Shown in pieces: positions 46,330-57,888 of a stretch of 64,000 bases of DNA. Source of the stretch: Cytobacillus pseudoceanisediminis (GTDB lineage: Bacteria > Bacillota > Bacilli > Bacillales > Cytobacillaceae); the NCBI RefSeq assembly GCF_023516215.1, contig NZ_CP097349.1, forward strand, positions 5,283,903 to 5,347,902, written 5' to 3'. The notes beneath the pieces are model-generated. The model was not told the DNA's origin. It did no database searches and worked only from the letters and a program-made list of their open reading frames with translations. Position 1 is the stretch's first letter; every line of letters begins with the position of its first letter. Both the position numbers and the translations under genes were made by a program.

Positions 46330-46500
46330 GTGAAACTTCAATTAGTGGGGGCCTTATCCCCGCTAATTGTTAGTTGAGGCCCACAGGATGTGGGTCACAA
46401 AGACATTGCCACTGGACAAGGAAAGCTACGGCAGCGATACATCGCACGACCGAAAGCGCAGCTTTTGGAAGGACGTGGCGTTCTTAGTCTTTGTTCTTCT
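46330..46500. repeat. dispersed intergenic repeat, family B
   Basis: Opens with a stem-loop CAATTAG/CTAATTG around a G/C-rich inner stem, then CCCACAGGATGTGGG, then a core at 46417-46453 with the pattern CAAGGAAAGCTACGGCAG and a following TCGCACGACC. The core matches 57718-57752 with about six differences over 35 bases. No coding frame. Confidence 0.65.
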
Positions 46501-46791
46501 TTCGTACCTTTAAGGACAGTTTGACCTCACATATACTTCTTTGATTTTCATTCAGTCTTGGAGTGGGGTCTTATTGTCCGTTAGACTGCGATATAGCTTT
46601 GCAATAGCGTAAATCACGGACAAGCATGGATACAGGCTCACCTAAGCCGGAATGCCGCATAGCGCATTTTCACATCCTATCTGTGAACGCTATTTTTTCA
46701 TGTCTAAATAGAAAAGCGGCTGAGACCTGTGAGTCCCTGGGAGCCGCAGCTTGACAATAAAATTCCGTCTGAACGAGGTGATGCCAGCTTG
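46501..46791 (+). other. structured region before trmR
   Basis: No gene is visible. Stems: GTCCG/CGGAC (about 46577-46622); ATAGCG with TTCACA/TGTGAA inside, closing with CGCTATTTTTT (about 46658-46697, terminator-like); and GCGGCT/AGCCGC (46714-46746). A TTGACA follows the last stem. Confidence 0.4.
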
Positions 46792-54351: not shown

Positions 54352-55050
54352 ATGAAAATAGCTATTATTGGAGCAATGGAAGAGGAAGTAACATTACTTA
54401 GAGATAAAATAGAAGAAAAGAGCCAGGAAACGATCGCCGGGTGCGAGTATACAGCAGGGAAAATGAATGGCGCGGAAGTGGTGCTTCTCCGTTCAGGCAT
54501 AGGCAAAGTAAACGCAGCCATGTCCACAGCTATTCTTTTGGAGAGATATAAGCCGGATTATGTCATTAATACCGGTTCTGCTGGAGGCTTTAATCCTGAA
54601 CTGAATGTGGGAGATACGGTAATCTCCACGGAAGTTAGGCATCATGATGTAGACGTTACTGCTTTTGGCTACGAATATGGCCAGGTGCCCCAATTGCCGC
54701 CTGCTTTTGAAGCAGACAGCAATCTGGTGCAGATCGCTGAAGCGTGTGCAAAGGAAATCGGGGATATCCAGGTTGTCAGAGGGTTAATTGCAACAGGTGA
54801 TTCCTTCATGAATGATCCTGCAAGAGTTGACTATATCCGTGATAAATTTACAGACTTGCAGGCAGTAGAAATGGAAGCAGCGGCGGTGGCACAGGTTGCC
54901 CATCAATTTCAGATTCCTTTTGTTGTCATTCGTGCACTTTCTGATATTGCTGGAAAAGAATCCGATGTTTCATTTGAGCAATTTTTGGAGAAGGCGGCAC
55001 TTCATTCCGCTACGCTGGTAATGAAGATTGTCGATTCTCTAAAGCAATAA
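54352..55050 (+). CDS. mtnN: 5'-methylthioadenosine/S-adenosylhomocysteine nucleosidase
   Basis: MtnN cleaves adenine from methylthioadenosine and S-adenosylhomocysteine, feeding methionine salvage and homocysteine recycling. The 232 residues have [32 protein letters not shown] and the end region [19 protein letters not shown]. In B. subtilis yrrT stands before it and mccA, mccB after it; none of these is present here. Confidence 0.97.
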
Positions 55051-55281: not shown

Positions 55282-55542
55282 ATGAAAAATGAAGCAAAGC
55301 ATTTATTTGAAAAAATGGTGGATTTCAAGCGTTTTGCAATTTCTATGCTTGCTGTCGGATCATTTTTTTACATTGGTTTGATTATCCCTGACACTGCAAA
55401 CACAGTTTCTGATTTATATATAATGGCTGGATCTTCCTCAGCTTTCCTGTTTGGCTCAATCCTTTTCTTTATCCTTTCAAAACGTTGCCGAAGTAAATTG
55501 AATGAAACGGATGAAGGACAGGAATACCTAATGAGGAAATAA
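55282..55542 (+). CDS. yrhC: YrhC family membrane protein
   Basis: An 86-residue protein with two membrane helices (MLAVGSFFYIGLIIP and MAGSSSAFLFGSILFFILS) and a charged C-terminus. YrhC ends the B. subtilis mtnN-mccA-mccB-yrhC operon; its function is unknown. Here it stands alone, with a start behind GAAGGTGATAA. Confidence 0.87.
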   Translation: MKNEAKHLFEKMVDFKRFAISMLAVGSFFYIGLIIPDTANTVSDLYIMAGSSSAFLFGSILFFILSKRCRSKLNETDEGQEYLMRK

Positions 55543-55615: not shown

Positions 55616-55644
55616 TTTACAAACCATATAACTGTGGATATAAT
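55616..55644 (+). promoter_or_regulatory. strong sigma-A promoter of the yrzI-like microprotein cluster
   Basis: TTTACA at 55616-55621, a 17-base spacer and TATAAT at 55639-55644. Confidence 0.85.
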
Positions 55645-55687
55645 TACCAATATAAGTGAAAATATTCTAAAAAGGAGGTCGAATGAA

Positions 55688-55768
55688 ATGATGTTAAAAG
55701 CAATTGTATTAGAAGCACAGCTAAATAAATATTTTACAAATTCGACCTACATGGAATGGATCGCTTAG
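55688..55768 (+). CDS. 26-residue ORF at the head of the yrzI-like cluster
   Basis: ATG 55688 (or 55691) lies behind the near-perfect site AAAAAGGAGGTCG. The product begins MMLKAIVLEAQLNKYFTNST and ends YMEWIA. No family was recognised. Two terminator-like hairpins separate it from yrzI, so it may be either a microprotein or a leader peptide whose translation affects read-through. Confidence 0.6.
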   Translation: MMLKAIVLEAQLNKYFTNSTYMEWIA

Positions 55769-55797
55769 ATTTGCTTAATTGACATTACATATCCATG

Positions 55798-55828
55798 CCG
55801 CAGGGAGAATTGTGCCCTGCGGTTTTTT
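55798..55828 (+). terminator. first hairpin between the 26-codon ORF and yrzI
   Basis: CCGCAGGG/CCCTGCGG stem with a 9-base loop and T6: a full intrinsic terminator in the middle of the cluster. Confidence 0.85.
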
Positions 55829-55843
55829 ATGCCTTATGGCCAG

Positions 55844-55876
55844 GCCGCTGGGAGTGTATCTCTTTGCGGCTTTTTT
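55844..55876 (+). terminator. second hairpin before yrzI
   Basis: GCCGC/GCGGC stem with a 17-base loop and T6; weaker than the first. Confidence 0.6.
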
Positions 55877-55917
55877 GTGCCTGCAGGCTGGATATGAATA
55901 AGGAGGTGGAATATCTA

Positions 55918-56058
55918 ATGACACTAAATATATTATTTTTGACAGTCACAATAAAAAAACGTCAATTATCAGCAGAAGATGTTGTACGCGAACAATTGGC
56001 TAAAAAAATTATCGATCAAAACCGAGATCGTCAATTCTCTATTTACCGTCCATTTTAA
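55918..56058 (+). CDS. yrzI: YrzI family small protein
   Basis: A 46-residue protein: MTLNILFLTVTIKKRQLSAE at the start, then a charged helix (VVREQLAKKIIDQNRDRQ) ending YRPF. This is the YrzI family (short hydrophobic N-terminus, basic pair, charged helix). ATG 55918 follows AAGGAGGTGG. In B. subtilis yrzI is the first gene of an mRNA carrying several tiny ORFs that is cut by Rae1 during translation. The biological role is unknown. Confidence 0.85.
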   Translation: MTLNILFLTVTIKKRQLSAEDVVREQLAKKIIDQNRDRQFSIYRPF

Positions 56059-56094
56059 TTTAAGTATAAAAAATTAGGAAAGGTGGTTTGCTAA

Positions 56095-56154
56095 ATGTTT
56101 TACATTTTACAAGGACGTCAGGCAATTTTCTGGGTGGAGAAAGATTCCACCTAA
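56095..56154 (+). CDS. 19-residue ORF with a Glu-Lys codon pair
   Basis: MFYILQGRQAIFWVEKDST, with ATG 56095 behind AGGAAAGGTGG. A GAG-AAA (Glu-Lys) pair stands near its end. In B. subtilis Rae1 cuts the 17-codon ORF S1025 of the yrzI mRNA between a Glu and a Lys codon. That this ORF is the counterpart is inference from context. Confidence 0.6.
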   Translation: MFYILQGRQAIFWVEKDST

Positions 56155-56185
56155 CAAAGCTGTAACCGGTTAGGAGGTATGGTGC

Positions 56186-56239
56186 ATGTCTTTGCATATT
56201 TTAATTTTAACCCTGAAATTCCGTAAAAAAAGGAACTGA
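56186..56239 (+). CDS. 17-residue ORF resembling the N-terminus of YrzI
   Basis: MSLHILILTLKFRKKRN, ATG 56186 behind TAGGAGGTATGG. It lines up with the YrzI start (MTLNILFLTVTIKKRQ) at most positions, so it looks like a shortened paralogue that keeps only the hydrophobic-basic head. Confidence 0.6.
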   Translation: MSLHILILTLKFRKKRN

Positions 56240-56342
56240 TCCACTTGATCCGGATTAACAGAATGTTCATATTCCTCTCCTTTTCTGAAGCAGAAACCAT
56301 GTTACATTAAAGAAAATAAGGAATTTAATAGGGGTGTGAAAG

Positions 56343-56423
56343 ATGTTTTGGATCGTAATGGGATTGGTTGTATGCGGCACTATCGGCTGCATCATATCGG
56401 CTGAGGTGAGCGTAGCCGAGTAA
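56343..56423 (+). CDS. 26-residue single-helix membrane ORF
   Basis: MFWIVMGLVVCGTIGCIISA then EVSVAE, with ATG 56343 behind AGGGGTGTG. It is almost entirely one membrane helix with two cysteines and an acidic tail. It is the last ORF before the cluster's terminator. No family was recognised. Confidence 0.55.
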   Translation: MFWIVMGLVVCGTIGCIISAEVSVAE

Positions 56424-56436
56424 CTTGGAATAAAAG

Positions 56437-56476
56437 AAAAAGGACTGACTTTGGGATTGAAAAGTCAGTCCTTTTT
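56437..56476. terminator. bidirectional terminator of the microprotein cluster and the opposite small gene
   Basis: AAAAAGGACTGACTT/AAGTCAGTCCTTTTT stem. The stop codon of the minus-strand gene is within it. Confidence 0.92.
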
Positions 56477-56629
56477 GTTTGGGAAAATCCAGAGAAATAA
56501 TACGATTCCAGAAACTCCAAGCAATATCAGCAAGGTCTTTAAAGAAAAACCTTCGAAAATAAATTTGGCTAGGCTGTCAAGCAGAACAATAAAAAAAACG
56601 AGAGCTAAAATGATTCTCTGGGCATTCAA
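56465..56629 (-). CDS. 54-residue membrane protein
   Basis: Minus-strand TTG 56629 after AAAGAGGTC gives MNAQRIILALVFFIVLLDSL and a second helix (TLLILLGVSGIVLFLWIFP) ending NKKD. Two membrane helices with a short loop. The reading frame, start site and shared terminator agree. No family was recognised. A TATAAT on the minus strand near 56700 may be its -10. Confidence 0.65.
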   Translation of the reverse strand: MNAQRIILALVFFIVLLDSLAKFIFEGFSLKTLLILLGVSGIVLFLWIFPNKKD

Positions 56630-56864: not shown

Positions 56865-57584
56865 ATGTCCGGTATTTTAACTGCACTCGGGTTTTTGGTT
56901 AAGGAGATTGTGTTTCTTGTATCTTATGTAAAAAATAATGCATTTCCTCAACCGCTGTCTCCTGCAGATGAAAAGAAATACCTGCGATTGATGGCTGCAG
57001 GCGATGCACATGCCCGTAATATGCTTATTGAACATAATCTAAGGCTGGTCGCCCATATTGTAAAGAAATTCGAAAACACAGGCGAGGATTCTGAAGATCT
57101 GATATCAATAGGGACAATCGGACTGATAAAGGCCATTGAGAGCTATTCAGAAGGTAAAGGCACAAAACTTGCCACCTATGCAGCCCGCTGTATTGAAAAT
57201 GAGATACTGATGCACTTGCGGGCATTGAAGAAGACGAAGAAAGATGTATCCCTTCATGATCCCATCGGGCAGGACAAAGAAGGAAACGAAATATCCCTTA
57301 TTGACGTTCTTAAGTCGGAATCTGAGGATGTTATTAATACCATACAGTTAAATATGGAGCTGGAAAAAGTGAAGGAGTATATTGATGTTTTAGATGACAG
57401 GGAAAAAGAAGTAATTGTGGGTAGGTTCGGGCTTGACCTGCAAAAAGAAAAAACACAAAGAGAAATTGCCAAAGAGCTTGGCATCTCTAGAAGTTACGTC
57501 TCCCGTATTGAAAAGAGGGCACTGATGAAAATGTTTCATGAGTTTTATCGGGCGGAAAAAGAAAAAAGGAAAAATAACAGCTAA
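56865..57584 (+). CDS. sigK: RNA polymerase sporulation sigma factor SigK (uninterrupted)
   Basis: Sigma-K directs late mother-cell genes. The 239-residue pro-protein has the N-terminal pro-sequence ([20 protein letters not shown]), normally cut by SpoIVFB, then region 2 ([38 protein letters not shown]) and region 4 ([19 protein letters not shown]). In B. subtilis 168 sigK is split by the skin element; here it is one continuous gene. A terminator follows. Confidence 0.97.
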
Positions 57585-57715: not shown

Positions 57716-57860
57716 GGCAAGGAACGCTTCGGCAGAGATGCTTCGCCCGACCACAGCTTGCTTTGGGAGGTTTCCTGCGTGAAGTCTTATGCCTGTTGGA
57801 CTTGCACAGGATGTACAGACTGCAGCGTTCGCCATTGAACGTGGCGGTTTTAGTTGAAGT
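57716..57860. repeat. dispersed intergenic repeat, family B core
   Basis: The core CAAGGAACGCTTCGGCAG with TTCGCCCGACC matches 46417-46453 in the same orientation. A CACAGGATGT follows here and precedes the core in the other copy, so the two elements are arranged differently. No gene lies between 57585 and 57888. Confidence 0.55.
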
Positions 57861-57888
57861 TCCTATGATCAAGTAGCTTTCGTTTTGG

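Follow-up and report, generated by a model that had tools for sequence, protein, structure and literature searches.

Do the five short open reading frames (ORFs) upstream of sigK in Cytobacillus pseudoceanisediminis form a simple operon of microprotein genes, or does the cluster also contain a regulatory RNA? We investigated this cluster within a stretch of 64,000 nt of genomic DNA, referred to here as the window. A sequence-only reading of the window had described one promoter followed by five microprotein genes and one strong terminator, and had proposed that this is the same system as yrzI and the nuclease Rae1 with a different set of peptides. In Bacillus subtilis, S1025, S1024, S1026 and yrzI are candidate Rae1 targets (PMC10632193), as is bmrCD. 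Only a few substrates of Rae1 have been established.

The yrzI locus and its ORFs

We identified the cluster as the yrzI locus itself, lying between yrhC and sigK, because mtnN, yrhC and sigK are the neighbors expected at that locus (Table 1). The proposed likeness to yrzI and Rae1 was therefore right but understated: the neighboring genes, YrzI and a counterpart of S1025 make the locus an ortholog. The "different set of peptides" applies to ORF4 and ORF5, but ORF2 is YrzI and ORF3 is the S1025 counterpart. All five ORFs have the predicted places and lengths. The predicted promoter is present and conserved, and it was the best match of our promoter scan, which overall did not exceed chance (7 sites found, compared to 8.5 ± 3.2 expected). 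Strong Shine-Dalgarno (SD) sites precede ORFs 1, 2 and 4, a GGTGG-type site precedes ORF3, and start codons and ribosome binding sites were found to be kept in relatives.

Table 1. Features of the yrzI locus and its surroundings, in window coordinates
Feature	Position	Strand	Details
mtnN	54352-55050		upstream of operon
yrhC	55282-55542		upstream of operon; PF14143
Sigma-A type promoter	55616..55644	+	TTTACA-17-TATAAT; 11/12 consensus matches
TGGATATAATTACC	55635-55648		spans promoter -10
Conserved leader RNA	55651..55876	+	start inferred from -10; ends at T2
SD of ORF1	55673-55678	+	AGGAGG
SD-side arm of SD-sequestering helix	55676..55684	+	AGGUCGAAU; overlaps SD
ORF1	55688..55768	+	26-codon leader ORF; peptide not conserved, frame open
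Anti-SD arm	55740..55748	+	AUUCGACCU; within ORF1 3' end; alternative partner of T1
Intrinsic terminator T1	55798..55828	+	CCGCAGGG...CCCTGCGG, T6; stem -16.8 kcal/mol
Intrinsic terminator T2	55844..55876	+	stem -16.7 kcal/mol
ORF2 (YrzI)	55918..56058	+	46 codons; PF09501, 56.6 bits (cut-off 23)
ORF3 (S1025 counterpart)	56095..56154	+	19 codons, MFYILQGRQAIFWVEKDST; 35/35 genus genomes, dN/dS 0.29
Hairpin in ORF3	56131..56153	+	TGGGTGGAG-AAAGA-TTCCACCTA; Lys codon in loop
Predicted Rae1 site in ORF3	between 56137-56139 and 56140-56142	+	between GAG and AAA
ORF4	56186..56239	+	17 codons, MSLHILILTLKFRKKRN; 33/35 genus genomes, dN/dS 0.10
ORF5	56343..56423	+	26 codons, hydrophobic, C-terminal AEVSVAE; 32/35 genus genomes, dN/dS 0.14
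Operon-closing terminator hairpin	56437..56476	.	detected on both strands
sigK	56865-57584		uninterrupted; downstream of operon

YrzI was kept in all 35 genomes of the genus, with a dN/dS of 0.19, and PF09501 was found in all 35 of the genus and in 47 of the 61 genomes searched. With 40.6 bits against TIGR02413 (cut-off, 47.05), ORF2 belongs to the Bac_small_YrzI family (PF09501/TIGR02413) by Pfam and falls below the NCBIfam cut-off; a link to sporulation is suggested by the family name alone. ORF4 resembles, by eye, a truncated YrzI N terminus. An ORF5-like peptide also occurs in loci L198 and L236, among the matches listed. The dN/dS values of ORFs 2 to 5 are typical of translated, constrained peptides, which these ORFs probably encode. 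Hence, the description as five microprotein genes holds for ORFs 2 to 5, which are under purifying selection, but not for ORF1, which shows no peptide-level selection (dN/dS 0.90).

The layout of one promoter and one terminator was wrong. The strong terminator at the end is present, but two more intrinsic terminators, T1 and T2, interrupt the path from ORF1 to ORF2, and the cluster is therefore more than five consecutive ORFs bounded by a single promoter and a single terminator. Our terminator scan had a loop limit of 8 nt, and neither T1 nor T2 was in its output; T1 was missed because its 9-nt loop exceeds that limit. A T-run follows both T1 and T2 in 35 of 35 genus genomes. Across these genomes, the pairs of T1 are formed in 98.9% of alignment cells, and those of T2 in 100% for the lower stem and 86.6% for the upper one. 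We concluded that the cluster adds a member to a known kind of operon and that the novelty lies in its leader RNA.

The B. subtilis yrzI operon (S1026, yrzI, S1025, S1024) is built alike: a leader with an SD-closed ORF and two terminators is followed by YrzI and then by an ORF of 17 to 19 codons ending in [VM]EKD... It differs in what comes after S1025, where B. subtilis has a 52-codon ORF instead of ORF4 and ORF5, and in its leader peptide, which is unrelated in sequence to ORF1.

Downstream, a 54-codon ORF on the minus strand (56465-56629) is convergent with the operon and ends in the operon terminator. It had a match in 28 of the 35 genus loci and belongs to no Pfam or NCBIfam family.

A conserved leader RNA with an open reading frame

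ORF1 was recovered in all 35 genomes of the genus. In the genus codon analysis, its dN/dS was 0.90 overall, 1.2 in the first part and 0.55 in the last part, which carries an RNA helix. Up to the end of the anti-SD core, the ORF1 frame had no stop codon in any of the 35 genomes; the other two frames over the same stretch had 133 and 35 stops and were open in 0 and 6 of the 35.

We also assembled 86 wider loci, comprising 71 of the 72 hits of one search (L044 omitted), 14 of the 27 hits of another (of the 13 omitted, five were repeats and eight were closely related to loci already included) and L147, which was placed by eye. These loci are not independent, since eight come from the genus of the window and L098 and L212 are apparently identical in sequence. 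Excluding five loci without GGAGG gave 81 wider leaders, of which 76 have at least two terminators between the SD helix and YrzI; none of 405 shuffled stretches did. In 80 of the 81, the first start codon after GGAGG, chosen without a length condition, begins an ORF that is 22 codons long or longer. At the end of ORF1, 72 of the 81 have the anti-SD core TTCG[AG]CC (nine lack it), which is read in frame 2, 1 or 0 of ORF1 in 42, 18 and 12 leaders, respectively. We rejected ORF1 as a conserved peptide gene on the dN/dS of 0.90 together with the reading of the core in three frames. We concluded that the leader RNA is kept and the ORF1 frame is kept open, but the ORF1 peptide is not kept. ORF1 has the appearance of a regulatory leader ORF, not of a gene for a peptide.

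The helix in which AGGUCGAAU pairs with AUUCGACCU sequesters the SD of ORF1, and 97.8% of its cells pair in the 35 genus genomes. For the whole leader structure in the genus alignment, 94.1% of cells pair, compared to at most 49% with the partners slid. Double changes are scarce in that alignment, with 4 pairs compared to 3.2 in shuffles. Among 72 aligned leaders, the SD helix had 24 double-change cells versus 5.4 ± 2.0 in shuffles, with 0 of 500 shuffles as high, a result that leans towards the helix because the alignment was fitted to it. The B. subtilis leader lies outside that alignment and has GGCUGAA/UUCAGCC where the window has GGUCGAA/UUCGACC, i.e., two compensated pairs. In the wider leaders, the stop codon of ORF1 lies a median of 18 nt past the helix, so by geometry a terminating ribosome would sit just beyond it.

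To describe the spread of the leader, we used a covariance model (model R1) that covers the leader as far as T1. It matched in 157 of 397 genomes of the order and found this conserved RNA in 50 of the 135 genera sampled; of 397 genomes drawn in the same manner, 193 had YrzI. No Rfam family matched the leader at gathering score in the window and six relatives searched, and weaker hits were rejected as sub-gathering (the trpB-motif over T1 and T2 scored 21.9 of 59 bits). Model R1 found no leader at yrzI in four genomes of the genus Bacillus, including B. subtilis, and also missed that of L147; there and in the Bacillus genomes, the leader was recognized by anatomy only. In all 21 Bacillus loci, a promoter-like motif is followed by an SD site, and ORF1 is 27 to 41 codons long. 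The SD core pairs with an ORF1 strand in 18 of the 21, the best match missing the SD in L258 to L260; since a best match is always returned, this pairing describes anatomy and is not a test. The leader is an unclassified, widespread RNA, and its anatomy fits that of a translation-sensing attenuator.

By a loose pattern, a YrzI-like start follows within 900 nt of the leader in 74 of the 81 loci; the pattern found none in L206, L207 and L221. In L206 and L207, an S1025-like ORF ending in EKDST is present, so that the smallest unit may consist of the leader and S1025. In some genera (L112, L199, L201 and L211, among the matches listed), three or four YrzI-like copies are arranged in tandem behind this leader. 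Around the -10 element (55635-55648), TGGnTATAnTTACC is kept in 55 of the 86 leaders, which is more than a promoter seems to need. Being roughly palindromic (TGG..CCA), this sequence may serve as an operator.

Alternative pairing of the anti-SD strand

The anti-SD strand can pair with either of two partners, the SD of ORF1 or T1, whose loop contains GAAU and there resembles the SD-side arm. Among approximately 128 windows, the anti-SD strand was the best partner of the T1 5' arm plus loop in 55 of 76 leaders. Shuffling the T1 loop alone weakened the pairing, from a mean of -9.85 to -6.50, in 69 of 76 leaders; taken singly, just 33 of the 76 reached a P value of ≤0.05. In the alignment, 85.1% of the anti-SD/T1 cells pair, compared to at most 56.8% when slid. 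Covariation for this pairing was weak (4 double-change cells versus 1.9 ± 1.3, with 56 of 500 shuffles as high), and a leader's own pairing exceeded the mean of those with other genomes in only 52 of 76. Two other candidates were rejected. Pairing of the anti-SD strand to T2 rather than T1 had a mean of -4.91, compared to -9.85, and T1 was the stronger partner in 71 of 76. The pair GGAAUGGAU/AUCCAUGCC, considered as an antiterminator, was 96.8% paired yet had no covariation.

The two terminators are also related to each other. The T2 5' arm resembles the T1 5' arm, and the T1 3' arm can therefore pair with the T2 5' arm (-14.7 kcal/mol). In 61 of 76 leaders, the T1 3' arm prefers its own T2 5' arm over those from other genomes.

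Which partner the anti-SD strand takes depended on how the RNA was folded. In folds of the nascent RNA that ended at the T1 loop, 55 of 76 leaders had the strand paired with the SD and 20 had it paired with T1. Masking the SD together with the first 15 nt of ORF1, to imitate a bound ribosome, brought it to T1 in 74 of 76. Adding the T1 3' arm changed the outcome: at equilibrium, T1 formed in 68 of 76 leaders despite masking of the SD. Since T1 wins at equilibrium, antitermination would have to be kinetic, occurring during transcription.

The reading that we favor on balance, as the more probable one, is that the leader is a ribosome-mediated attenuator, largely independent of the sequence of its leader peptide, ahead of a Rae1-controlled mRNA. 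Transcription would begin near position 55651, and the nascent leader would carry ORF1. With no ribosome present, the AGGUCGAAU/AUUCGACCU helix would form and leave T1 and T2 free to form; transcription would then stop, leaving an RNA of ~180 to 230 nt. A ribosome on the SD and the early codons of ORF1, as in slow or stalled translation, would release the anti-SD strand, which could then pair with the T1 5' arm and loop; the freed T1 3' arm could in turn take the T2 5' arm. With both terminators blocked, RNA polymerase would continue into yrzI, ORF3, ORF4 and ORF5. A normally translating ribosome on ORF1 would cover the anti-SD strand, so that T1 could form. Because the ORF1 peptide is not conserved, such a switch would sense the general state of translation, not one amino acid.

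There is a precedent in bmrCD, which is controlled by ribosome-mediated transcriptional attenuation through the bmrB leader (PMC4191407). Both leaders have a short ORF and an intrinsic terminator before the structural genes; the translation of the short ORF and the alternative stem-loops of bmrB are predicted for the yrzI leader. In bmrB, the terminator is inside the 53-residue ORF, whereas here two terminators lie downstream of ORF1. The yrzI leader also differs in that the switching strand is the anti-SD strand and the leader peptide sequence is free. We found no description of the yrzI leader as an attenuator in the open-licence literature searched.

Other explanations start from the same features. 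The leader might be mainly a stable small RNA (sRNA), ncr2184/ncr60 of B. subtilis, that acts in trans, perhaps with Hfq; the terminators would then just end the sRNA, and yrzI would receive read-through. The sRNA ncr2184 (2779115-2779348) spans the B. subtilis leader from ~20 nt past the predicted start through T2 (2779139-2779113); it coincides with the terminated leader and in this also fits the attenuator. It is among the Hfq-associated RNAs of B. subtilis (PMC3574147), and PMC4634765 mentions the yrzI-yrhG transcript as an RNA with a possible dual function. We nonetheless consider this explanation unlikely, since it leaves unexplained the open ORF1 of 80 of the 81 leaders, the SD-sequestering strand inside ORF1 and the match of that same strand to T1, and since the loose pattern places a YrzI-like start after the leader in most loci. 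A different possibility, which we regard as more doubtful, is that the SD helix governs translation of ORF1 alone, as a thermosensor or by auto-inhibition, while the terminators are punctuation and yrzI has its own promoter. The SD helix is indeed the best-covarying element, and T1 wins at equilibrium. However, a scan for the sigma-A consensus, the one promoter type scanned, found no plus-strand promoter between T2 and yrzI; the matches between the T1 loop and the anti-SD strand beat the loop-shuffle mean in the large majority of leaders, as described above; and the mapped 301-nt 5'-UTR of yrzI in Bacillus licheniformis could hold such a leader (PMC3871023).

The operon might also encode a toxin-antitoxin-like set of peptides, with YrzI and ORF5 as its hydrophobic members, S1025 as a regulator, and the leader and Rae1 as locks on a toxic peptide. 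Such a role may have been proposed for yrzI before. YrzI and ORF5 are short and have hydrophobic stretches, and their expression appears to be multiply restrained, but our search of the open-licence literature found no statement of toxicity, and we judge this explanation improbable. It is compatible with the attenuator.

The S1025 counterpart and the predicted Rae1 site

ORF3 ends in ..VEKDST, and its counterpart in B. subtilis, the Rae1 substrate S1025, is MLRMELLMHYTMEKDQV. We take the Glu-Lys codon pair of S1025-like ORFs to be the cleavage site of Rae1, which places the predicted site of ORF3 between a GAG and an AAA codon. Within the genus, the position expected to hold Lys has Lys in 29 of 35 genomes and Asn in 6. 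A strict C-terminal pattern, in which the Glu position may be Glu, Met or Ser, identified an S1025-like ORF in 48 of the 86 wider loci; 27 further genus loci brought the set to 75. Of the 75 loci, 74 use GAG as the Glu codon of the site and one has a codon for Ser there; AAA or AAG follows in 68. Glu codons in the YrzI ORFs of the genus are mostly GAA (115, compared to 9 GAG), and the site therefore looks constrained as RNA. GAG is not rare everywhere, since ORF5 has 36 GAG and 33 GAA codons.

The predicted site is in a hairpin whose loop contains the Lys codon. Of 43 distinct ORF3 tails, 30 folded into a hairpin of at most -5 kcal/mol that has the Lys codon in its loop or next to it, and 19 were more stable than 95% of their synonymous versions. 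G014 and G015 have the variant GUUGA/UCAAC. B. subtilis and B. atrophaeus differ from the window in having no such hairpin, so it is not essential for the family.

The Rae1 family, PF05991, was found in 61 of 61 genomes and as one piece in 59; in G035, the match was only a 20-position piece. In the genome of the window itself, the rae1/yacP homologue (G000:C1:4027881-4028365; L001), which lies outside the window, is in two overlapping frames near a run of A, which is either a real loss or an assembly error.

Rae1 would cut ORF3 between the GAG and AAR codons while ORF3 is being translated, and the mRNA would therefore be removed when it is translated. Taking the leader and the nuclease together, we tentatively propose an RNA switch, widespread in Bacillales, that reads the general state of translation: one strand would alternate between closing the SD of ORF1 and opening the coupled terminators, and the mRNA so made would be destroyed by a ribosome-borne nuclease. 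We take this possibility seriously without yet thinking it probable. Synthesis and decay of the mRNA would then both be gated by ribosome movement. Levels of yrzI and bmrCD mRNAs rise when tRNA maturation fails, on depletion of a tRNA maturase, and the effect on yrzI was placed under mRNA stability (PMC10100781). The rise of both is in line with the attenuator, but Rae1 alone could explain that of yrzI. If the leader is an attenuator, yrzI and bmrCD would share a logic in which transcription is passed and mRNA is removed according to the behavior of ribosomes, and the operon would be a directly testable reporter of translation stress.

Two Bacillaceae-1 RNAs (RF01690) are also present on the minus strand of the window, at 46380-46503 and 57803-57869, and a Bacillaceae-1 RNA is likewise found near the yrzI locus of L149.
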